Shown piece after piece: positions 1,348 to 11,843 of a stretch of 37,558 bases of DNA. The stretch comes from Myxococcales bacterium. Lineage in GTDB: Bacteria; Myxococcota_A; Polyangia; Polyangiales; Houyiibacteriaceae. Below the pieces are notes generated by a model. That model had not been told where the DNA came from. It was given only the letters and a program-made list of their open reading frames with translations, and did no database searches. Location of the stretch: assembly GCA_019637115.1 (NCBI GenBank), contig JAHBWH010000071.1, forward strand, positions 1 through 37,558, in the 5' to 3' direction. Made by a program: the position numbers and the translations under genes. How positions within the stretch are numbered: the first letter of the stretch is position 1; every line of letters begins with the position of its first letter.

Positions 1348-2757
1348 TCAGGAGCGATCGAGCGGGACCGTGACGCGGAAGCGGGTGCCGCCGTCGACGT
1401 CGACCTCGAGGGTGGCGCCGAGCTGCTGCACCAGGGCGTGCACCATGCGCAGCCCGAGCGTCGAGCCCTGGACGCGCTCGGGGACGTTCGGCAGCCCGAT
1501 CCCGTCGTCGGAGATCTCGAGCTCCAGCGTCCGCCCGCGCGCCGAGCCGAAGACGCGCACGCTGCCGGACGAGCGGCCCTCGAAGGCATGCGCGAAGGCG
1601 TTGCTCACCAGCTCGTTCACCAGCAGCCCACACGGGACCGCGACGTCGACCGGCACGGCGACTCGCGCGACCTCGACGTGCAGGGCGACGCTCTGGCTCG
1701 CGTGGTCGTGCGCGAGGGCGATCTGTTCGGCGAGCTCCTGCAGGTAGGCGTGGAGATCGAGGTTCGCGAAGTCTCCGCTCCGATAGAGGCGCTGGTGGAT
1801 GAGCGCCATCGCGAGGATCCGCCGCCGCGCCTCTTCGAAGGCGCGGCGACCGGCAGCGTCGTCGAGCTGGGATTGCTGCAGATAGAGCAAGCTCGACACG
1901 AGCTGTAGGTTGTTCTTGACGCGGTGGTGCACCTCGCGGAGCAAGACCTCCTTCTCGGCGAGGGAGCGCTCGACCTGCTGCCGCGCGGAGCGCTCTTGCG
2001 TCAAGTCGCGGACGACGACCTGGATCCCGTCGCGGCTGTTCAGCCGGACCGGGCGCGCGATCACCTCGACCTCGCGGAGCTCCCCGCTCGCCAGGCGGAC
2101 CGTGGTCTCGTGGAGGTCGCGACCGTCTCGGAAGACGCGGGCAGCCACGTCCTCGAGCTCGGCGTGAGATCGCAAGGCGTCGAGCGTGCTCACGGGGCGG
2201 CTCATGAAGGTGTCGAGCGCGTGTCCGAAGAATCGGATCGCGCTCTCGTTCGCCTCGAAAGGGATGAGCGTCTCGGCGTCGATGACGAAGATGGCGTCGG
2301 GGGACTCCTCGAAGAGCGCGTGGAACTTCTGTTCGCTCTCGCGGAGGCCGCGGAGGCTGCGCTCGCGCGTGGTGACGTCGAGCAGCGAGAGCACGAGACC
2401 GCTCACCTCGCCCTCGTCGTCGGGCACCGGCACGAGGGACCAATCCCAATAGGTCACGCCGCGCTCTTCGGCGTGGACGTAGACGAACGCCTTGGCGCGC
2501 TCGTGATGAGGCTCGCCGGTCTCGAGCACGCGGCGGAAGATCGCCTCGTTCTCGGCGTTCGGATAGAGCTCGAAATGACCCTTGCCGACGAAATCCTCGG
2601 GCGCGAGCCCGTCGGCGGAGGCGTAGGCGCGGTTGACGCGGATGAAGCGGAGCTCGCGGTCGAGGTACGCGATGTGAAGATTGGTGTGGTCGAAGAACGC
2701 CTCGAGCAGGCGGGCCCGATCGTCAGCCGAGATCGGCGGCCGCGTGCTGGAGGTCAT
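1348..2757 (-). CDS. PAS-PAS sensor histidine kinase of the HWE/HisKA_2 type
   Basis: A 469-residue cytosolic kinase with no membrane segment. Two PAS domains lie at about residues 15-135 (FFDHTNLHIAYLDRELRFI) and 140-260 (LFEESPDAIFVIDAETLIP). The dimerisation/phosphoacceptor helix LLREVHHRVKNNLQ follows, with the His pair near 277-278. This EVHHRVKNN signature marks HisKA_2/HWE kinases rather than classical HisKA. The ATPase domain at about 365-467 carries the N-box LLVNELVSNAFAHAF, the G1 box DDGIGLP and a short final lid. The ATG overlaps the stop of the upstream LuxR-type regulator by four bases, which indicates translational coupling. It is the last gene of a three-gene two-component operon. 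The PAS ligand is unknown. Confidence 0.93.
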   Translation of the reverse strand: MTSSTRPPISADDRARLLEAFFDHTNLHIAYLDRELRFIRVNRAYASADGLAPEDFVGKGHFELYPNAENEAIFRRVLETGEPHHERAKAFVYVHAEERGVTYWDWSLVPVPDDEGEVSGLVLSLLDVTTRERSLRGLRESEQKFHALFEESPDAIFVIDAETLIPFEANESAIRFFGHALDTFMSRPVSTLDALRSHAELEDVAARVFRDGRDLHETTVRLASGELREVEVIARPVRLNSRDGIQVVVRDLTQERSARQQVERSLAEKEVLLREVHHRVKNNLQLVSSLLYLQQSQLDDAAGRRAFEEARRRILAMALIHQRLYRSGDFANLDLHAYLQELAEQIALAHDHASQSVALHVEVARVAVPVDVAVPCGLLVNELVSNAFAHAFEGRSSGSVRVFGSARGRTLELEISDDGIGLPNVPERVQGSTLGLRMVHALVQQLGATLEVDVDGGTRFRVTVPLDRS

Positions 2758-3557
2758 CGCGGCGGCGTCCCCATCACGCGGCGCACGAGCTCGACGCGGC
2801 TGTGCACGTCCAGCTTCGCGTAGATCGCCCGGAGGTGGTTGCGCACGGTGTGCTCGGAGATGAAGAGCTGCTTGGCGATCTCCCGCACCGATCGCGCCTC
2901 GACGACGAGCGTGACCACCTCGCGTTCGCGGCCCGAGAGCGCCGCGAGGGCATCATCGGCCAGGGTGGAGGCCGCCGTGCCGTTCGGTGACGCGCCGTCT
3001 GGCGACGCGCTTCTTGGCGACGCGCCGTTGGCCGTCGTCGTGGCCGTCGCGGCCGTCGGCATGGCGGGCGGTGGCGCGCTCGGTCGCCGCGGCGGCTCGA
3101 TCGCGGCGCTCGCGAGCAGGGGCTCGAGCGCCTCGAGTGTCTGCACGAGCTCCTTGGCGTGCTCCCGCGCATGGTGGAGCTGTCGGACGGCTCGGCCCTT
3201 CTCGAGCGCGATGTCGATGCGGTCCAGGAGGTCTCGCGGGGGGATCGGCTTGACGAGGTAGTCCACCGCGCTGAGGCGGAGCGCGTCGATGGCCGAGCCG
3301 ATGCTGGGTTGGCCGGTCATCACGATGACCCGAGGAGTCTCGGGGGAGCGGCTGAGCTCGTCCAAGAGCCGCAGACCCGAGCCGCCTGGCATGTGGATGT
3401 CGGTCAGCACGAGGTCGACGACGCGCGCGCCGAGGGCCCGCTGCGCCTGCGCGACGTCGTGGCAGACGGTGACCTCGTGGTCGCGCTGGGCGAGCAGCGC
3501 CGTGTAGGCGGCGCAGAGCCCAGCGTCGTCGTCCACGAGGAGGATGCGTCCTCTCAT
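2754..3557 (-). CDS. Response regulator, receiver plus LuxR-type helix-turn-helix
   Basis: A 267-residue protein. The N-terminal receiver has the acidic pocket VDDD (residues 8-11), phosphoacceptor Asp53 in LTDIHMPGGSG, the T/S position at VMTGQ and Lys103 in LVKPIPP. A coiled segment (about 115-160) and a low-complexity Ala/Ser/Pro linker with repeated ASP-G-A motifs (about 160-200) follow. The last 60 residues are a GerE/LuxR DNA-binding domain: LSGREREVVTLVVEARS, then EIAKQLFISEHTVRNHLR. The unusually long linker separates receiver and DNA-binding domain. The gene overlaps both neighbours by four bases (hybrid kinase upstream, HisKA_2 kinase downstream). Either kinase could be its phosphodonor. 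Confidence 0.94.
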   Translation of the reverse strand: MRGRILLVDDDAGLCAAYTALLAQRDHEVTVCHDVAQAQRALGARVVDLVLTDIHMPGGSGLRLLDELSRSPETPRVIVMTGQPSIGSAIDALRLSAVDYLVKPIPPRDLLDRIDIALEKGRAVRQLHHAREHAKELVQTLEALEPLLASAAIEPPRRPSAPPPAMPTAATATTTANGASPRSASPDGASPNGTAASTLADDALAALSGREREVVTLVVEARSVREIAKQLFISEHTVRNHLRAIYAKLDVHSRVELVRRVMGTPPR

Positions 3558-5428
3558 GCGTGTCCTCCGAGCAGGCGCTGCAGGGCGGCGTCGAGGTGCG
3601 CCAGGTCGACGGGGCGCGCGCAGAGCTCGACGCCGTCGGGGTCGCGTAGCGCCTCGAGCCGAGGCTCGACCTGCAGCGCGGGCAGGCTCGGGTGAGCCTC
3701 GCGGAGCCAGGCGCCCAACGTGTCGTCGTGCTCGGGATCATAGAGCACGCCGTCGACCGGGCCGGCGTCCACGAGTCGGCGGGCGTCCGCGACGTCGGCG
3801 GCGTCGCGCGCGGTGACGCGGAGGTAGCGCAGGAAGCGGACCAGCGCCGCATGCGTGGTGGGGCAGCCATGCAAGAGCACGAGCGTCTGCCGGCGCACGG
3901 CGGCCGCGTGGCTGATGGGCGCGCGCGCGTCGGCGTCGACCGCAGGGAAAAGCACGCGAGCTATTGCCCCGCGGGTCGTCGAGCGCAGGTCGAAGGCGCC
4001 GCCTCGCGCGTGCACGATGGCCCGCACCGTGGTCAGGCCTAGGCCCGTCCCTTGCCCGACGGGCTTCGTGGTGAAGAAAGGATCGAACGCGCGCGCCAGG
4101 GTCGTGGCGTCGAGCCCGGTGCCCGAGTCTTCGACCTTCACCTCCACGTAGCGCCCAGGCGGCAGCGTCCCGGTGCTGAGCACGCTGGCGTGCTCGAGGT
4201 GGATCTCGCGCGTGCTGACGCGGAGCGGGCCCCCGTCGGGCATCGCGTCACGGGCGTTGGCGACGAGGTTCAGCATGACCTGCTCGAGCTCGGCCTCTCC
4301 GAGCTCGGCCACGCCCGCCCCCGCCTGGAGCGAGAGCTCCAGCTCGATCGAGCCGTGGGCGACCGCCCGCAAGAGCGGCGTCATCGCGTGCAGCTCCAGG
4401 CTGACGTCGAGCGGCTGCGCGTCGGAGACGCGGTCCTGGCGGGCCACCGCCAGGAGCGAGCGCGCGAGCGCCGCGCCTCGCTCGACCGTCTCGGCGATCG
4501 CATCGAGCGACGCGCGCGGCGGCCCCTCGAGCTCCCGCGACGCGATGAACACGTGCGCGTGGATGGTCGAGAGCAGGGTCTGGAAGTCGTGCGCCACCCC
4601 CGCCGCGAAGCGCCCCACCGCCTCGAGTTTCTGCGCGTCGACGAAGCGCTGCTGGAGCTGCTCTCGCTCCGTGACGTCGCGGAGGATCATCGTGAGGATC
4701 GTGTCGGCGTCGACCTCGACGCGGGCGACCGAGACCTCGGCCGAGAACACCGCGCCGGTGCGCCGCAGACAGCGCATCTTGGTCGAGGCCTCGCCGTCGG
4801 CGGCCTCGCCGTGGAGGACACGCTCGAGGAGGGCACGTCGCGCGACGCGCTCGTCGACCGGGAGCAGCGCCTCGAAGGAGAGCCCGAGCGCCTGGTGCGC
4901 GGGCCAACCGAAGACCTCGGACGCCCCGCGGTTGAAGACGACGACGCGCAGGTCGTCGTCGAGCGAGACGATCGCGTCGCGCGATTGGTCGAGCATCACC
5001 GCGAGGCGATGCTCGAGGGCGCGGCGTCTTCGCTCCTCGCGCTCTTGGGCTTGCTCCGCCTCGAACTTGAACAGGACGGCGTCGAGGGTGATCTGGAGCA
5101 GGCGTGGGTCGAAGGGCTTGAGGAGATAGTGCGAGTGCGGGACGCGCCGGACCCGCTCGAGCGTCTCGTCGTCGTCGAACGCCGAGAGGAAGACCACGGG
5201 GGTCCGCCGCTCCGCTTGGATCCGTCGCGCGGCCTCCACGCCGTCGAGGGGGCCCGCGAGGCGGATGTCGAAGAGGAGGAGCTCGGGTTGCCCCTTGAGC
5301 GCGCGCTCGAGAGCCGCCTCACCCGTCGCGACGACGTCGGTGACCGCGAAGCCCATGCTGGTCAGGCGGCGCTCGAGCTCCAGCGCGATCAGGGCTTCGT
5401 CTTCGGCGATGAGGACTCGTCGAGGCAT
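3554..5428 (-). CDS. Hybrid sensor kinase: receiver-PAS-HisKA-HATPase-degenerate receiver
   Basis: A 624-residue protein from the ATG at 5428. A GTG six codons upstream (5446) is also possible; the ATG is preferred because the receiver strand RRVLIAEDEA starts directly after it. Order: receiver (about 1-120, Asp54 in LLFDIRLAGP, Lys104 in YLLKPF), coiled linker, PAS (about 140-255), HisKA with GRFAAGVAHDFQTLLS (His280), and an ATPase domain with N-box LNLVANARDAM, G1 DSGTGLD, F box FDPFFTTKP and G2 GQGTGLGLTTV. A C-terminal receiver-like segment (about 500-620) lacks the paired acidic residues and the conserved Lys (CARPVDL). The usual HDFNN after the phosphoacceptor His reads HDFQT here. First gene of the operon with 3554-3557 overlapping the response regulator. 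Confidence 0.92.
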   Translation of the reverse strand: MPRRVLIAEDEALIALELERRLTSMGFAVTDVVATGEAALERALKGQPELLLFDIRLAGPLDGVEAARRIQAERRTPVVFLSAFDDDETLERVRRVPHSHYLLKPFDPRLLQITLDAVLFKFEAEQAQEREERRRRALEHRLAVMLDQSRDAIVSLDDDLRVVVFNRGASEVFGWPAHQALGLSFEALLPVDERVARRALLERVLHGEAADGEASTKMRCLRRTGAVFSAEVSVARVEVDADTILTMILRDVTEREQLQQRFVDAQKLEAVGRFAAGVAHDFQTLLSTIHAHVFIASRELEGPPRASLDAIAETVERGAALARSLLAVARQDRVSDAQPLDVSLELHAMTPLLRAVAHGSIELELSLQAGAGVAELGEAELEQVMLNLVANARDAMPDGGPLRVSTREIHLEHASVLSTGTLPPGRYVEVKVEDSGTGLDATTLARAFDPFFTTKPVGQGTGLGLTTVRAIVHARGGAFDLRSTTRGAIARVLFPAVDADARAPISHAAAVRRQTLVLLHGCPTTHAALVRFLRYLRVTARDAADVADARRLVDAGPVDGVLYDPEHDDTLGAWLREAHPSLPALQVEPRLEALRDPDGVELCARPVDLAHLDAALQRLLGGHA

Positions 5429-5572: not shown

Positions 5573-7630
5573 TCATTCGACGAAATCTGTGCGCGTCGGC
5601 GGATCACACGACGGAGGAGGGAGGCCGAGCCCTGCCTCCGCCCGCCAGAGTTCGGGCCAGGCGCCCTCGGCGACCATGCGCTCGGTGAGCTTGGTTCTCG
5701 TCGGCTCGGACAGGGCGACAGGGGGCGCCGGCTCCCCCGGCAGCGCGAGGTGGACCCAGCCTCGCGGGCCTTCCGCGGCGCTCGCGAGCCGCGGCAGGTC
5801 GACCTCCGGCGAGAGGGCGCGCCAGGCCGCGAGCATCCGGGTGGTGAGCTCGTCGAGGTCATCGACGGCCGCGGACGCCAGCGCGTCGGCGAGCGTCGGC
5901 GCAGCGGGGCTGATCATCCAGATCGTCCACCCGTCTCGGGTGGGGGCCAGGATGAGCGCCCGCTCCTCCGGGAGCACGCTCGTCCACGGCACGAGGGCGC
6001 GCACCACCTCGAGCAAGCTCCGTCGCGCGCTCTCGAGCTCGGGGACCTGCCAACGATCGCACGTGTGGAGGAGCAGGCCCCGGTCGGAGCAGAGCTCGAT
6101 CGCGTCTCGGGGGGCCCATGGCCGGCGCTCGCGACGCGTCAGCGCGCCGAGGGTCGCCGCGGTGTAGAGGGCGCGACCATGGACGGGGGGCCACGCGCAC
6201 CCAGGCGGCAGCTCCGAGGCGGGAGGCAGCTCGACTCCTGGCGGTAGGTCCCCGATCACCTCCGACGAGGGCGGCAGCTCGACTCCCGGAGGGAGGTCCC
6301 CGATCGCCGGTTGCGGCGTCTCGCAAGGGGGAGGTCGGGACGAAAGCTCGCCGGCGACCGGGGTCTCGTGTGGTGCGGACGGGGCGCACGAGTCGCCCTC
6401 GGCCGGCGCTCGGGCCGCCAGGTCGGGCGCGTGGCGGGCCTCGGGCCCGTGGTTGGAGGATGGCTCGAGCGGGTCGGCGTATGCGGCGCACCCGGCGTCA
6501 GGCTCGGTGACGGCGACCCCGACGTGGACGTCGTCGTGGTCGCCCACGTCGACGACGTCGACGTCGTCGACCGTTTCGCCCGCGAGCTCGTCGGCCGCGT
6601 CGACCTCGTCGTCGGCGCGCGCATCGAGCGCGATCTCGGCCGCGTCGACCGGGCGGAGCTCGAGCGCGAGGTAGTCATCGTCGGCCTCGAGCTCGAGATC
6701 GGGCGCGGTCGGGTCGTCCGCGCCAGGTCCTTCGGTCGTGTCGTCGGCCGCATGCGCTGCGGTGGCGTCGGTCTCCACGTCGGCCGCATGCGCTGCGGCG
6801 GCGTCGGCCCCCACGACATCGGCCGCGACCGTCGCTGCTGCGAACGCGAGCTCGAGCTCACTCGGCCTCCCGACGTGGTCGTCCAGCGTGGCCCGGAGGA
6901 CGACGGGGGCGGTGGACGCGCGCGCCATCGGGACCACGCGGGCGTCCGTGCGCTCTTCGAGCAGGGCGCCGAGCCCGTGCGCCAGCATCGCCTCGTGCAG
7001 GCTCTCGGCGGAGCCCAGGCCCGTCTCCGCGACCGACTCGCGCGCGAGCAGCGCGCGCACCCGCTCGGTGGCGAGGCGCGAGGCGAGCAGGAAGCTCTCG
7101 CGGACGCCCTCGGCCTCGTGGGCGCGCGCGCCGACGACGGGCACGGTCGCGCCCACCGCCAGCCGGTTGGCGAGCGCGGAGGGCGTCAGGGCGTTGGGGC
7201 GGTCTTGTTTGTTCGCCTGGAGGACGACGCCGATCGGGAGCTCGCCCTCCACGCGGACGAGCATCTCCCGGAGCTGTCGGAAGGATTGGCGGCTCTCTTC
7301 GACCAGGAAGGGGTGCGAGTCGGCGACGAAGACGACGGCGTCGGCGGACTCCAAGAGGTAGCGGCGTCGTCGGAGGAGGCTCGGCTGGCCGGGGACGCTG
7401 ACGAGCTGACAGCGAAGCCGGCGGCCGTCGACGTACCCTCCCGAGAAGTCGAGCCAATCGAAGAACTCGGTGCGACGACTGGTCGTGCCCGGTGCGACGA
7501 CCTGCCCACGGCGCTGCATCGACAGCAGCGTCGAGAGTGCTCGGACGTTCGTCGTCTTTCCGGCCTCTGGGCTGCCGTCGTAGACGATCCGAATGACGAG
7601 CTCTCCGTTCTGGCGGTCGATGTACGGCAT
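5573..7630 (-). CDS. MglA-like Ras-superfamily GTPase with long acidic linker and unassigned C-terminal domain
   Basis: A 685-residue protein, over three times the usual ~195 residues of MglA. The N-terminal ~200 residues form the GTPase: P-loop YDGSPEAGKTTN (18-28), switch II SVPGQ (78-82, the PGQ form seen in MglA-type enzymes), and G4 NKQD (140-143). Residues about 255-420 are an Asp/Ala-rich low-complexity linker with repeats such as TAAHAADVETDA. A proline-rich section repeats IGDLPPGVELPP (about 440-475). The remaining ~200 residues (from HGRALYTAATLGALTRRERR onward) are a compact Trp-rich domain I do not recognise. It lies 196 bases downstream of the Roadblock-like gene, the partner type expected for MglA-family GTPases. 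A switch role in polarity, motility or transport regulation is inferred. Confidence 0.87.
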   Translation of the reverse strand: MPYIDRQNGELVIRIVYDGSPEAGKTTNVRALSTLLSMQRRGQVVAPGTTSRRTEFFDWLDFSGGYVDGRRLRCQLVSVPGQPSLLRRRRYLLESADAVVFVADSHPFLVEESRQSFRQLREMLVRVEGELPIGVVLQANKQDRPNALTPSALANRLAVGATVPVVGARAHEAEGVRESFLLASRLATERVRALLARESVAETGLGSAESLHEAMLAHGLGALLEERTDARVVPMARASTAPVVLRATLDDHVGRPSELELAFAAATVAADVVGADAAAAHAADVETDATAAHAADDTTEGPGADDPTAPDLELEADDDYLALELRPVDAAEIALDARADDEVDAADELAGETVDDVDVVDVGDHDDVHVGVAVTEPDAGCAAYADPLEPSSNHGPEARHAPDLAARAPAEGDSCAPSAPHETPVAGELSSRPPPCETPQPAIGDLPPGVELPPSSEVIGDLPPGVELPPASELPPGCAWPPVHGRALYTAATLGALTRRERRPWAPRDAIELCSDRGLLLHTCDRWQVPELESARRSLLEVVRALVPWTSVLPEERALILAPTRDGWTIWMISPAAPTLADALASAAVDDLDELTTRMLAAWRALSPEVDLPRLASAAEGPRGWVHLALPGEPAPPVALSEPTRTKLTERMVAEGAWPELWRAEAGLGLPPPSCDPPTRTDFVE

Positions 7631-7690
7631 GGGTCACGTCGAGGAGGCACGTCGGGCGTGAGCGTCGCGAGGTTTCAGCGGCGCGGCTGG

Positions 7691-7801
7691 GTCGATGTCA
7701 TCGGCCTCGTGGGTGGGCGCGCGTGCGAGCACGCCCGGCCTCGGCCCGGCGGGGTCGATGTCATCGGCCTCGTGGGCGGGCGCGTGCGAGCACGCCCGGC
7801 C
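7691..7801. repeat. Two ~48-50-bp near-identical direct repeats
   Basis: Copies at 7691-7740 and 7754-7801 differ by a few bases and a two-base indel, separated by 13 bases. Each contains an internal imperfect GC-rich stem (GGGCGCGTGC/GCACGCCC). They fill the gap between the Roadblock-like gene and the GTPase gene, on the transcribed strand of both. They could be an intercistronic hairpin pair or a small repeat family; there is no T-tract. Confidence 0.75.
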
Positions 7802-7826
7802 CCCCCGCGGGAGAGCCGGGCGCGGA

Positions 7827-8231
7827 TCACGCGGCGGCGGAGACGTCCTGCGCGGCCTGGCGGCCCTTCGTGAGCGCCATGCCGACGTTCACGCTGCCGC
7901 GGCAGACGAAGACGATCGCCTGGTCGGTGTAGCGCTTCGAGCGGAAGAAGAGGTGGAGGAGGTTGTCCGAGAAGACGAGGATCTCCTGGAAGTAGTGCTT
8001 CCCGTCCTCGCCGTGGCCGCGGCTCTTGCGGAAGAGCTTCTCGATCGCGCTGACGCTCTGGCCCTGGAAGAGATCGGCCGTCGCGGCGGCGACGAGGTCG
8101 AGGACCTCTTGAGGGTGAGAGTCGACGGTCTTCACGCCGAGCAACATGCCCGTGCTCATGTCGACGTAGCCGGTGGCGACGCATTCGGGGACGGTGGTCT
8201 GGGCCTTGGAGAGGGCAGCATCGAGTGACAT
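7827..8231 (-). CDS. Roadblock/LC7-like small protein (putative GTPase regulator)
   Basis: A 134-residue soluble alpha/beta protein. It starts with helix SLDAALSKAQTTVPECVA, then strands GYVDMSTGMLLGVKTVD, a long helix (HPQEVLDLVAAATADLFQG), and strands FQEILVFSDNLLHLFF and QAIVFVCRG, ending in helix MALTKGRQAAQDV. This matches the strand-helix order of Roadblock/LC7 (MglB-type) proteins, which act as GTPase-activating or scaffold partners of MglA-family GTPases. The call rests on fold pattern and context, since the next gene downstream is such a GTPase. Its ATG is 8 bases from the stop of the ABC-phosphatase gene, and an AGGAG motif sits at the end of that gene, so translation is probably coupled. 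Confidence 0.72.
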   Translation of the reverse strand: MSLDAALSKAQTTVPECVATGYVDMSTGMLLGVKTVDSHPQEVLDLVAAATADLFQGQSVSAIEKLFRKSRGHGEDGKHYFQEILVFSDNLLHLFFRSKRYTDQAIVFVCRGSVNVGMALTKGRQAAQDVSAAA

Positions 8232-8239
8232 GGGTTCGC

Positions 8240-9604
8240 TTACTCCTGGGTGGGTGTTCGGGCCTCGGGCCGCGACATGCGGCGCGAGGCGTCGTCTTGG
8301 CAGCGCTCGGCGAAGCGCTCGAGGAAGCGCGCTTGGGCTTCCGATTGGATCGTTCGAGGACGCAGCCCGCGGACGGTGTCGATGGCGTCGACCGCGCCAG
8401 CGCCGCGCCAGATCGCGTAAGCGGCGAGCACGGTCCCGGTGCGGCCGAGCCCGGCGAGGCAGTGGACGGCGACGACGCGCCCCTCCGCGAGGAGCCCGTC
8501 GATGCGCGCGCAGAGGGCGGCCGCGCGGTCGAGGGACGGGGCCTCCATGTCGGGGATGGGGAAGAGCTCGTTGCGGATGCCCCGCGCGTCGAGCGCCTCG
8601 CGCGGGACGGTCGCGGTCTCTTCGAGGGTGATCAGGACGTCGACGCCGAGGCCGCGGACGCCGTCGAGGTCGTCGTCGAGCTCGGCGACGATGCCCGGGC
8701 GTGGCATCCCAGCGAGCTGACCTTCGACGAGCCAGAAGAAGCCGCGAGGCTCACGGGCGGCGTTGAGTCGGATCTGGGTGGAGATGGGGAGCGGGGTCGG
8801 TCGCGCGACGCCCTCGGCGAGCTCTTCGGCGAGGGCGGAGGGTGAGGGCACGGCGCAGTGGCCGGTGGCGAGCCACGCCCGGCCGGCCTCGGTCTGTGGA
8901 CCGTCGAGGAACTCGAGGGTGTCGCCGGACTCTTCGATGCGGCCGCCGGCGAGGAGGGCGACGCGACCCCCGAGTGCGCGGGCGTGCCCGCGGTGGTGGG
9001 TGCAGACGACGAGCGCGCGCTCTTCGGAGAGCAGCCGCATCAAGAGCAAGAGCGCGCCGGCGTCTTCGTCGTCGACGCCCGCCGTGGGCTCGTCGATGAG
9101 GATGCAGGACGCTTCGCCGAGGGCGGCCCGCGCGATGGCGAGGCGCCGCTGGTCCGCGAGCGAGAGCTCGAGCGCGGGCGCGTCGAGACGCTCGAGCAGA
9201 TCCTTCTGACCGAGCGCGTCGAGGACGCGGCTGACGTGGGCGTGCTGCTGGGGGCGGGAGAGCGCGGCGCGATCGGGCAAGGCGGAGTAGAGGTTCTCGC
9301 GGACGCTGCTGATGAGCTGCCGCGCGTCTTGCAGGACCATCGCCGGGCGGGGCGCGCCCGCGAGGGGGTGCCCAGCGTAGAGCGCGAGGCCCCAGGTGCG
9401 GAGCGCGGGCTGCCGGTCGTTCAGGCCGGCGAGCGTCCTCAGGAGCGTCGATTTGCCGGTGGACGCCGGGCCGACGAGGATCACGACACCTCGCGCCGGC
9501 ACGTCGAGCGTGACGTTCGAGAGCACGACGTGCTTGCCGAAGGCGACCCCGAAGCGCCGCAGCTGGAGCGCGTCGATCGCGCGGTCCCGGGCGGCCGCGC
9601 TCAT
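8240..9604 (-). CDS. ABC-type ATPase fused to a dual-specificity/tyrosine phosphatase domain
   Basis: A 454-residue protein from the ATG at 9604, which overlaps the upstream stop codon (ATGA). Residues 10-240 are a single ABC ATPase resembling PstB-type importer ATPases: Walker A GPASTGKST (45-53), Q-loop VLQD (90-93), a degenerate signature LSLADQ (148-153) in place of LSGGQ, Walker B CILIDEPTAGVD (167-178) and H-loop His near 203-204. Residues 285-440 are a dual-specificity-phosphatase-like domain: GFFWLVEGQLAGMPRP, a candidate general acid Asp352 in FPIPDMEAP, and the CX5R loop HCLAGLGRTGT with Cys382 and Arg388. No membrane segment or permease gene is nearby. A regulatory rather than transport role is inferred. 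Confidence 0.92.
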   Translation of the reverse strand: MSAAARDRAIDALQLRRFGVAFGKHVVLSNVTLDVPARGVVILVGPASTGKSTLLRTLAGLNDRQPALRTWGLALYAGHPLAGAPRPAMVLQDARQLISSVRENLYSALPDRAALSRPQQHAHVSRVLDALGQKDLLERLDAPALELSLADQRRLAIARAALGEASCILIDEPTAGVDDEDAGALLLLMRLLSEERALVVCTHHRGHARALGGRVALLAGGRIEESGDTLEFLDGPQTEAGRAWLATGHCAVPSPSALAEELAEGVARPTPLPISTQIRLNAAREPRGFFWLVEGQLAGMPRPGIVAELDDDLDGVRGLGVDVLITLEETATVPREALDARGIRNELFPIPDMEAPSLDRAAALCARIDGLLAEGRVVAVHCLAGLGRTGTVLAAYAIWRGAGAVDAIDTVRGLRPRTIQSEAQARFLERFAERCQDDASRRMSRPEARTPTQE

Positions 9605-10785
9605 GCATCCACCCGCGCGAGCTCGCGGACGCTCGCCGCGAGCAGGGCCCACGCCAGCCCCTGAGAGCAGCCGCGCTCGATGGAGAGCCAGAGGACACGC
9701 CCGCTTCCGTCCGGCACCTCGGCCGCGAAGTGCCAGAGCTCGGCGCATGCGAGCAGCATCGAACGCTGGTCGAGGCCCATCTCTCCATCGCCCGTCTGCA
9801 CGAACTTCTGGAGCGCGGGGGCGCGCCGGCGCTGGAGCTCCAGGTGCGCCGTCGGGTCGAGGTCCTCGCGGTGCAGCGCGAAGCCGACGTCTCCCGGCCC
9901 GTGGAGGTGCGCGATGGCGACGTCACTCGAGCGCCGGAGCGACTCGTGGAGGATCTCCTTCACGACGGCGGGCGCCTCGCCGTACTCCGACATCCGCGCG
10001 ATCGCCCCGCAGCGCGGCGGTGGGGAGAGCCAAGGCGCCAGCGCGACGAGGACACCGCCCAGTCGATATGCGGGCTCCACGTCGAGCCACGCCACGCGGT
10101 CTCGGATCGAGAGGCCGACGAGCGCTTGCTCTCCCGCGCGCAGCGCGACGAGCTCCACGTCGCCTTCGAAGAGCTGCGCGTCGAGCTCGGGGGCGATGTC
10201 GACGGGGAGCTCGGACGGCCAGCTCGCGCGCGCCGCGCCTCCGTGGCGAACCACCACCCACCGCGACTCCGGCACCGACGCGCGGAGCTGCCCGAGCAGA
10301 TCCGGGTCGTCGATCGGCTGCGGCTCCGTGCGCACCTCCTCGAGCGAGAACGTGAGCGCCGTGTCGTACTCGGCGAAGCGGTTGCCGCGCTCGAGGAAGA
10401 GCGCGTTGACGTTCGTGCGCCCGTGCAGGCTCGCGAGCGCCTGACGGATCTGCTCGGCGAGGCAAGCGCGGACGTCCTCCGCCGACGCGAGCTTCCACGC
10501 GACGAGCGTCTCGCCCAGCGGCCGTCGGTCGTGGCGGCACCCCTCGACGACCTCGCGGAAGGCCTCCGGCTCGATGCCGGCGCGGGCGCAGAGCTCGCGA
10601 GCGAAGACGAGCGGAGCGGCCGAGCTCGTCGCCCACGCGACGCGCCCACGCTGCAGGAAGACGTGGACCTCGAGGTCCTCCGCGGCGCACACGAGCTCGC
10701 CGGTGGCCTGCGCGGCGACGAGCGCCGAGAGCTTGGGGAGCGGGCCGCGGCGGGCGCCGACGTGACGGACGCGCGGCGCGTTCAT
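9601..10785 (-). CDS. DUF4388/PATAN-like N-terminal domain protein, function unknown
   Basis: A 394-residue soluble protein. The first ~130 residues resemble DUF4388/PATAN-type signalling domains: LSALVAAQATGELVC, then VHVFLQRGRVAWATSS, followed by a helical part with PLGETLVAWKLASAEDVRACL, typical of the paired helices in these proteins. The C-terminal 250 residues mix beta strands (GDVELVALRAGEQALVGLSI) with helices and carry no motif I recognise. In myxobacteria this N-terminal domain is common in proteins linked to MglA/Roadblock or two-component signalling. The start ATG overlaps the stop of the upstream gene (10782-10785) and its own stop overlaps the ABC-phosphatase ATG (9601-9604), so the three are translationally coupled. 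Confidence 0.75.
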   Translation of the reverse strand: MNAPRVRHVGARRGPLPKLSALVAAQATGELVCAAEDLEVHVFLQRGRVAWATSSAAPLVFARELCARAGIEPEAFREVVEGCRHDRRPLGETLVAWKLASAEDVRACLAEQIRQALASLHGRTNVNALFLERGNRFAEYDTALTFSLEEVRTEPQPIDDPDLLGQLRASVPESRWVVVRHGGAARASWPSELPVDIAPELDAQLFEGDVELVALRAGEQALVGLSIRDRVAWLDVEPAYRLGGVLVALAPWLSPPPRCGAIARMSEYGEAPAVVKEILHESLRRSSDVAIAHLHGPGDVGFALHREDLDPTAHLELQRRRAPALQKFVQTGDGEMGLDQRSMLLACAELWHFAAEVPDGSGRVLWLSIERGCSQGLAWALLAASVRELARVDA

Positions 10786-11843
10786 GGCGTCGTCTCACTC
10801 CAAGCGTCCGCGGGGGTCACCGTCGGCATGCTCAGCTGGAAGCGCTTGGCGAGGCGCAGCAGGATCGGGTGGATGACCTCCTCGGAGGCGCGCTCTTCGA
10901 TGCGGGCGTCGAGCTCGTCGTCGAGGCCGCGCAGGGAGCGGAGGTCGATGCCCGTGGTGGCGGTCCACTCCTGCTCGAGCAGCTTGCGGATCATGCGGGC
11001 GTCGTGCTCGACGAGCTCTTGGCGTCGGTTCACGTGGGAGAGCAGGTCCGCGAAGCCGACCATGTCCTGCCAGAGGCGCCCGCCTTCGGTCGCCGCGATG
11101 GGCGCGTCGACGGCGCGGAGCCAGTCGAGGATGCGTGCCTGCAGCGCGCGGAGCTGGCGCCGGTCGTGGATGCGGAGGTCCGGGTAGACGTCGCGGCCGA
11201 TCAGCATCGCGATCGCCGTCCCGACCCGCCGGAACGCGCGGCGCAGCGCCTCCGTGTCCGCCGGCGCGCCCTCGCGCGCGATGGTCCGTCGAAGCCGCGC
11301 GTACTCGCGCCGCACCTCGATGGACCGGCTGGCCTCCGACTCGTACCCGAGCTTGGCCTCGAAGCCCTCGGCGCGCGCGAGCACGACCTCGATGGCGGTC
11401 AGGGCCTTGATCGTGCGACGCAGGGCGCTGCCGCACTCGGCCACCACGTCCCAGCCGTCGCTCATCTCCGCGACTCGGCGCGGGCTCATCTTCTGGCGCA
11501 GCTCGGAGAGCCCGAGGAACGCGACGTCGGCGACGCGCTGGCCGGCGTCGTTCATCAGGTTGTCGACGTTCACGTAGAAGAGCCCCGACGCCGACGCCTC
11601 CGCCTCGCCGAAGGCGTCGTCGAGGCCGCCGACCTCCTCGGGGCAGCCGTCGTAGTGGCACAAGAGCGCCTCGCAGAGGGCGACGGCGTCGGCCACGACC
11701 TGGCTGACCTCGCGGGCGAGGCCCGCCCGCACGTCGTCCGCGCCGAGGCCCTCGTGGGGCCGGATGTCGATGCCGCGCGCCCGCCGCACGCAGGCGACGA
11801 GACGGGCATGAAGCTCTGAGGGATCTCTTGCTTCGGTCGACAT
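10782..11843 (-). CDS. Predicted all-helical protein of unknown function, first gene of the ABC-phosphatase/GTPase operon
   Basis: A 353-residue protein with no signal peptide or membrane segment. It is rich in Arg, Glu, Ala and Leu and reads as long helices, for example [58 protein letters not shown] and [20 protein letters not shown] do not recognise a family. It is the promoter-proximal member of a coupled gene set, and a 9-bp hairpin lies in its upstream region. The start at 11843 is the ATG giving [15 protein letters not shown]; no strong ribosome site precedes it. Confidence 0.85.

Follow-up and report, generated by a model that had tools for sequence, protein, structure and literature searches.

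The stretch of DNA analysed here (the window: 37,558 nucleotides of contig JAHBWH010000071.1, from a Myxococcales bacterium) carries five minus-strand genes, g1 to g5, within positions 5573 to 11843. They encode a helix-rich protein, a DUF4388 protein, an ABC-type ATPase fused to a cysteine phosphatase, a small protein predicted to have the Roadblock/LC7 fold, and an MglA-type GTPase with a long C-terminal extension. We consider the chances roughly even that the five genes make up one signalling module, in which a Roadblock-controlled GTPase switch would be wired to reversible phosphorylation. The genes and their principal features are listed below, with open reading frame (ORF) coordinates.

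10782..11843, minus strand: g1, helix-rich protein of 353 residues, family F20
9601..10785, minus strand: g2, 394 residues, N-terminal DUF4388 (PATAN-like) domain (PF14332) and a C-terminal region
8240..9604, minus strand: g3, 454 residues, ABC ATPase fused to a DSP/PTP phosphatase (PF00005 and PF22785)
8825..9604, minus strand: ABC ATPase domain of g3
8270..8818, minus strand: phosphatase domain of g3
7827..8231, minus strand: g4, predicted Roadblock/LC7-fold protein of 134 residues (AlphaFold2 and Foldseek)
7679..7801, unstranded: 63-bp tandem duplication in two copies, in the gap between g4 and g5
5573..7630, minus strand: g5, 685 residues, MglA-type GTPase, long linker and C-terminal domain predicted to be a pseudokinase
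7031..7630, minus strand: G domain of g5, residues 1-200
5588..6202, minus strand: predicted kinase-fold C-terminal domain of g5 (profile match and alignment)

The window has a GC content of 72.5% and contains many long spurious ORFs. A codon-usage gene caller written for it chose all five genes over dozens of these, placing the start of g1 18 codons later than the ORF start. Overlaps of 4 bp join g1 to g2 and g2 to g3, g4 follows g3 after 8 bp, and g5 follows g4 after 196 bp. The initial annotation of this locus had reported these positions, the overlaps, both gaps and the repeat in the longer one, and each detail that we checked was right. Every 63-bp copy carries a perfect dyad, GCGTGC-GA-GCACGC; the tandem duplication is unique in the 8.9 Mb host genome, and the number of such dyads in the window is not above chance. 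No sigma-70-type promoters or terminators above chance were found across the locus, which is weak evidence in a GC-rich myxobacterium, and an Rfam search gave no match.

The product of g3 matches ABC_tran (PF00005) at 3.8e-16 and the DSP-type phosphatase family PF22785 at 4.1e-21, and carries a Walker A motif (GPASTGKS), a Walker B motif (ILIDEP) and a phosphatase loop (CLAGLGRT). Both the HCX5R loop and the general-acid Asp that define a DSP-type cysteine phosphatase are present, and in an alignment of 17 members of the phosphatase family (A4) D88, H117-C118, R124 and Q160 are invariant (A4 numbering). The nearest solved structures are amino-acid transporter ATPases for the ABC domain and DUSP23-type enzymes for the phosphatase domain. 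With the DUSP23-type phosphatases (Pfam PF22785/PF22784) g3 shares the domain and its active-site motif, but in g3 this domain is joined to an ABC ATPase, and no permease gene, such as an ABC transporter would have nearby, was recognised among the neighbours, which were labelled by module profiles and not scanned for transmembrane segments. The CX5R and Walker A motifs are intact in the fused ABC-phosphatases listed; in Rhodobacterales that hold the phosphatase as a separate gene, the ABC-linked copy has lost CX5R. Three relatives (L049, 6325-9900; L055, 6256-9900; and L071, where L-numbers label related loci in other genomes) have enlarged ABC-phosphatases of 1192-1963 residues with an extra region.

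The Pfam label of PF22785 is that of a polymorphic toxin system, and at some loci dynamin and ABC NTPases adjoin the Roadblock gene, both of which would suit a system for biological conflict, whether anti-phage or toxin. PADLOC, however, gives only general ABC/AAA matches, and among the genes adjoining the loci examined none was recognised as toxin-like or as part of a mobile element, no systematic search for them having been made; we regard a conflict function as very improbable.

The signalling reading gives a central place to g4, which has no match above cut-off in Pfam or NCBIfam and none in PADLOC. Its AlphaFold2 model, built with 55 relatives, has a mean pLDDT of 90.8 and the order helix-strand-strand-helix(-helix)-strand-strand-strand-helix. 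The top PDB matches in Foldseek are Roadblock/LC7, MglB and Ragulator proteins (3kye, 3t1r, 3t12 and 1j3w among the top entries; E ~2e-7, TM ~0.7). On this model we assign g4 to the Roadblock/LC7 fold, independently of a profile link that connects it with F21, a further Roadblock-like family (probability 95.8%). It is also the most conserved member of the module, with 75-83% identity between lineages where g1 and g2 have 33-44%, and identity to Streptomyces homologues is still ~50-60%. Across phyla Cys17, His79, His93 and Asn115 are near-invariant and Asp24 and Glu83 invariant, which is unusual for a Roadblock domain; these residues may mark a ligand or partner site. The names given to the other parts in the initial annotation, DUF4388-like for g2, ABC-phosphatase for g3 and MglA-like for g5, are likewise borne out by PF14332, by PF00005 with PF22785, and by a PDB match to MglA, while its Roadblock-like g4 is backed by the structure model and Foldseek without a Pfam match.

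Scanning genome contigs with g4 returned at least 156 relatives, and 80 loci were read. The pair formed by an ABC-phosphatase and a g4-type Roadblock protein was found in Myxococcota, Planctomycetes and Alpha-, Beta- and Gammaproteobacteria. A phosphatase-family gene lies on the same strand within 5 kb of the g4 homologue in 24 of 30 cases in Myxococcota/delta, 4 of 8 in Alphaproteobacteria, 5 of 6 in Beta/Gammaproteobacteria and 1 of 1 in Planctomycetes, and conversely, of the 24 best phosphatase matches in 379 Myxococcota genomes, 23 have a g4 homologue no more than 5 kb away. The linkage figures are partly biased, and the latter is inflated, as the profile was seeded from linked loci. Of these 379 genomes 31 encode g4, 15 encode g1 and 14 the kinase-fold domain; the module is therefore uncommon, though its occurrences are widely spread. 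The Actinobacteria have no ABC-phosphatase/g4 pair; there the g4 homologue stands beside another Roadblock gene (35/35 loci) and a DUF4388-like gene (28/35). This arrangement is seen in Streptomyces and relatives (L076-L111), where the g4 gene is accompanied by the other Roadblock gene and usually by the DUF4388-like gene, and the Roadblock pair is apparently unstudied.

The neighbourhood of the core pair varies between lineages. Outside the arrangement seen in the window the core may be followed by a fusion of a reductase to a truncated globin (L065), by a standalone globin or by dynamin-like GTPases, and TPR proteins may precede it. A 2Fe-2S/FAD/NAD reductase-truncated globin-like fusion lies downstream of the g4 homologue in L032, L038, L050, L057, L062, L065, L066 and L209, and such neighbours recur beside the core pair in Myxococcota, Alpha- and Gammaproteobacteria; they hint at redox or gas sensing. 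In Rhodobacterales (L057, L059, L060, L066) the g4 homologue is found amid dynamin-family GTPase genes, and a Ruegeria plasmid (L213, 4317-15209) adds protein kinase, FHA and PP2C genes to such a setting.

The GTPase g5 matches MglA over residues 4-191 (PDB 3t12, E 2.9e-25) and keeps the P-loop, switch-1 Arg53/Thr54, VPGQ82 in place of DxxG, and NKQD. In MglA, Arg53 and Thr54 are the switch-1 residues placed into the active site by MglB, and the M. xanthus Q82L variant does not hydrolyse GTP (PMC6876712). The published MglA survey was confined to single-domain small GTPases (PMC4316618), and g5, with 685 residues, a linker and a kinase-fold domain, lies outside that definition; we therefore class it as a multidomain protein with an MglA-type G domain. 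A G domain whose nearest PDB match is MglA and which keeps every catalytic residue, beside a predicted MglB fold in g4, would suit a device for polarity or motility that departs from MglA/MglB of M. xanthus in accessory parts only. Yet none of the genes beside the module was recognised as a motility, pilus or Frz-type gene, the host genome encodes other MglA-like genes, and the core extends to Rhodobacteraceae, Planctomycetes and further lineages with dynamin-like GTPases, globin-reductases or TPR proteins. We think a pure polarity role improbable.

Part of what ties the GTPase to phosphorylation under the module reading is the C-terminal part of g5, some 490 residues that the initial annotation overlooked and that end in the kinase-fold domain. 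This tail has a profile match of 2.0e-53 (to a profile containing the window sequence itself), is aligned to its relatives in alignment A3, and is homologous by profile searches to other GTPase tails and to the N-terminal half of a kinase-like/metallophosphoesterase protein. Sequence-only searches of the PDB and Pfam with the kinase-like domain gave nothing convincing. A model of the corresponding tail of L024, to which the window tail is tied by alignment, reaches a pLDDT of 92.7 and a pTM of 0.89. Its best structural match is Bud32/PRPK (Z 10.2 over 192 residues at 4.4 Å), with maltokinase, glucosamine kinase, amicoumacin kinase and many protein kinases below, and every listed top PDB match is a kinase-fold protein. 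Foldseek TM-scores are low (<0.45); we call a kinase fold because of the uniform identity of the matches, a VIA Z above 8 and the ordered Lys, Asp...Asn and Asp-Asp motifs, and the C-terminus of g5 is thus predicted to adopt a protein-kinase-like bilobal fold.

In the window the beta3 Lys of this domain is replaced by His, and the catalytic Asp, the Asn and the metal-binding Asp-Asp are missing, so that the residues of an active kinase are absent. Judged by these residues it is a pseudokinase, and its role should therefore be one of binding or allostery. Intact motifs are found in the GTPase tails of L024 and L025 and in the separate genes carried by L034, L035, L036 and L132. The losses are complementary: L034, L035 and L132 combine a dead GTPase-borne domain with an intact separate kinase-like/metallophosphoesterase gene, and L024/L025 have an intact GTPase-borne domain and the phosphoesterase as a standalone gene.

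A circuit based on a phospho-metabolite would use much the same parts, the kinase-like domain, the calcineurin-like phosphoesterase and the DSP phosphatase making and breaking a small phosphorylated ligand sensed by the Roadblock/GTPase part. Maltokinase, glucosamine kinase and amicoumacin kinase do stand among the structural neighbours of the kinase-like domain, beside Bud32 and protein kinases; the phosphoesterase of the relatives belongs to PF12850, and DSP relatives include the lipid phosphatases PTEN and PTPMT1. Kinase-fold matches, however, do not tell protein kinases from small-molecule kinases, the nearest solved phosphatases are protein phosphatases of the DUSP23 type, and the window lacks an active kinase-like domain. 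We hold such a circuit to be unlikely.

The relatives bear on whether g5 belongs with g1 to g4. The order g1-g2-g3-g4-...-g5 is found in the window and in L034, L035, L036 and L132, among unrelated flanking genes, and the latter four have a second Roadblock gene and a kinase-like/metallophosphoesterase gene at the site of the 196-bp gap of the window. Identity between independent lineages is 36-44% for g1, 33-40% for g2, 47-52% for g3 and 40-50% for g5. For the same four genes L036 and L132 share 64-75% identity; being mutually related, they bring the count to about four independent, deep Myxococcota lineages. The initial annotation had proposed that a module should be conserved beyond close strains, and this is what these lineages show. 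Homologues of g1, at 36-46% identity, open the module in L033, L034, L035, L036, L042 and L132, and the nearest relative, L033, lacks g2. The GTPase gene of L036 (11886-13927) is split by a frame shift, from assembly error or decay.

A more cautious account divides the locus into two units: a g1-g4 operon encoding an ABC-phosphatase/Roadblock switch, and an independently expressed g5 that is merely a frequent neighbour. The 196-bp gap before g5, with its tandem duplication and dyad, fits such a division, as do L042, where a globin gene but no GTPase comes after g1-g4, and L032, where GTPase-type genes lie on the opposite strand. The 63-bp duplication could be an operator of g5, or a scar where relatives hold two extra genes. 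Set against this, g5-type GTPases with a kinase-fold tail follow the core in L033, L034, L035, L036 and L132 as in the window, the GTPase gene lies 0-9 bp from the preceding gene in L034, L035 and L132, and L024/L025 hold GTPase, Roadblock, DUF4388, phosphoesterase and phosphatase genes in a single tight run. On balance two separate units seem rather unlikely, if less so than the alternatives already discussed.

Beyond the partly biased linkage figures, several observations weigh against a single five-gene module. The g1 family stands alone in many other Myxococcota genomes, the 196-bp gap could house a separate g5 promoter, and the window has no kinase-like/phosphoesterase gene and the host genome no intact relative of the kinase domain. 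Many ABC-phosphatase/Roadblock loci (L038, L042, L044, L046, L052) have no GTPase gene, and controlling a GTPase is thus not what the core does everywhere. A GTPase accompanies it often but not always; what is constant is the ABC-phosphatase together with the Roadblock protein.

The remaining genes and their relatives suggest how signals might enter the module. No match above cut-off was found for g1 in Pfam or NCBIfam, and none in PADLOC. The DUF4388 match of g2 (PF14332) scores 29.4 bits, above the Pfam gathering cut-off of 25, and places it in that family. Its C-terminal region is possibly a divergent Roadblock-like domain; a comparison of that region with the g4 family by hhalign gave E 0.04 and a probability of ~1%, a mere hint, and we did not adopt the assignment. 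In L024, L025 and L203 genes for a histidine kinase and for a receiver-DUF4388 protein open the run (domain labels checked in L024 and L203); the rest of the latter protein matches the profile of g4. By domain content, these receiver-DUF4388-Roadblock fusions tie two-component signalling directly and covalently to a Roadblock domain:

L024, 9282-10454: receiver-DUF4388-Roadblock fusion, beside a histidine kinase
L025, 10605-11921: receiver-DUF4388-Roadblock fusion, beside a histidine kinase
L203, 8316-9533: receiver-DUF4388-Roadblock fusion, beside a histidine kinase

The window itself has two-component genes close to the five, which may or may not belong to the module and are a possible input:

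1351..5428, minus strand: receiver-PAS-histidine kinase, LuxR-type response regulator and PAS-histidine kinase genes, 144 bp downstream of g5

Taken together, the single-module reading would work as follows. The constant core would be g3, combining an ABC-type ATPase with an intact cysteine phosphatase, and the Roadblock protein g4; the Myxococcota variant would join to it the MglA-type GTPase g5 and the DUF4388 adaptor g2. An upstream signal would enter by the DUF4388/Roadblock platform, in relatives by way of the histidine kinase and the receiver-DUF4388-Roadblock fusion. The Roadblock protein would then dock physically on g5 and, as an activator of hydrolysis or of nucleotide exchange, set its GTP/GDP state with the help of g5's own Arg53/Gln82, as MglB does for MglA. 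The state of the GTPase would move the attached kinase-fold domain, a domain that has intact motifs in some relatives and that as a pseudokinase in the window could only bind or regulate. Finally the g3 phosphatase, gated by its own ATPase, would take phosphate off its substrate and reset the system. The initial annotation had suggested that GTPase state is coupled both to phosphorylation and to nucleotide state. The first link emerges stronger than was claimed, since a predicted kinase-fold domain is built into the GTPase itself and the relatives bring in further kinase, phosphatase and two-component components; for the second we can offer only inference.

A wider proposal, to which we give slightly less credence than to the module itself, is that the ABC-phosphatase and g4-type Roadblock protein form the core of an undescribed multi-phylum system for ATP-gated dephosphorylation under a Roadblock platform. 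Lineages would add different GTPases to it (MglA-type with a kinase or pseudokinase tail, Group 3-like, dynamin-like) and different sensors (two-component, truncated globin-reductase), and Myxococcota would fuse GTPase and kinase, trading activity with a separate kinase-phosphoesterase gene.

Several known systems resemble the module in part. The premise of the initial annotation that known MglA modules comprise a GTPase and a Roadblock partner only was mistaken: RomR/RomX, RomY and MglC act with MglA/MglB, and conservons have four proteins. Group 3 MglA systems include a further regulator, and earlier work has recorded PATAN/DUF4388 proteins close to MglA or MglB (PMC4316618, PMC11016934; Makarova 2006, as cited in PMC4316618). 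With MglA/MglB of M. xanthus and T. thermophilus (with RomR/RomX, RomY and MglC) the module shares the Arg53/Thr54/Gln82 G domain and a Roadblock partner and, in its relatives, a response-regulator link; it differs in the kinase-fold tail of its GTPase, in a Roadblock gene that stands in an operon with an ABC-phosphatase, and in a g4 that, unlike MglB, is not recognised by sequence (no Pfam match). Actinobacterial conservons (CvnA-D) likewise unite in one operon a Roadblock protein, a GTPase, a poorly described protein and histidine-kinase input, but they lack ABC-phosphatase and DUF4388 and use a different Roadblock subfamily. The module is no conservon, as g1-g5 include no CvnC-type family match and the histidine kinases lie downstream of g5.

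A further comparison is with Group 3 MglA systems of beta- and gamma-Proteobacteria: in L061, L069 and L070 a helix-turn-helix-type protein, a GTPase and a Roadblock protein follow the ABC-phosphatase and g4 homologue, and by the architecture seen in the present analysis these loci look like Group 3 systems. The published account of Group 3 lists a regulator, MglA and one or two MglB proteins, and mentions neither the ABC-phosphatase nor the g4 family (Wuichet and Sogaard-Andersen 2014, PMC4316618). Like the known PATAN/DUF4388 neighbours of MglA/MglB, g2 is a DUF4388 protein encoded beside a Roadblock gene and a GTPase; it differs in that its domain is fused to another region and its gene overlaps that of the ABC-phosphatase, and in that L024, L025 and L203 place DUF4388 between receiver and Roadblock domain. 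In the open-access literature we found no published ABC-phosphatase/Roadblock pair or MglA-kinase-fold fusion, and an earlier description of a PF22785-type ABC fusion is possible. Each part is thus of a known kind; the combination appears undescribed, and the core has a substantial chance of representing a new system.

Work on Ras-like switches in bacteria usually treats them as devices of polarity or of conservons, and what is known of their links to phosphorylation comes mostly from two-component proteins. In the present locus a GTPase shares one chain with a predicted kinase-fold domain and is genetically tied to a phosphatase mounted on an ATPase, with a putative Roadblock protein that crosses phyla in the middle. 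This would give context to the otherwise unannotated Roadblock family of g4, which is present in many Streptomyces too, and the module would provide a defined, testable set of parts for joining GTP and phosphate signals in bacteria.

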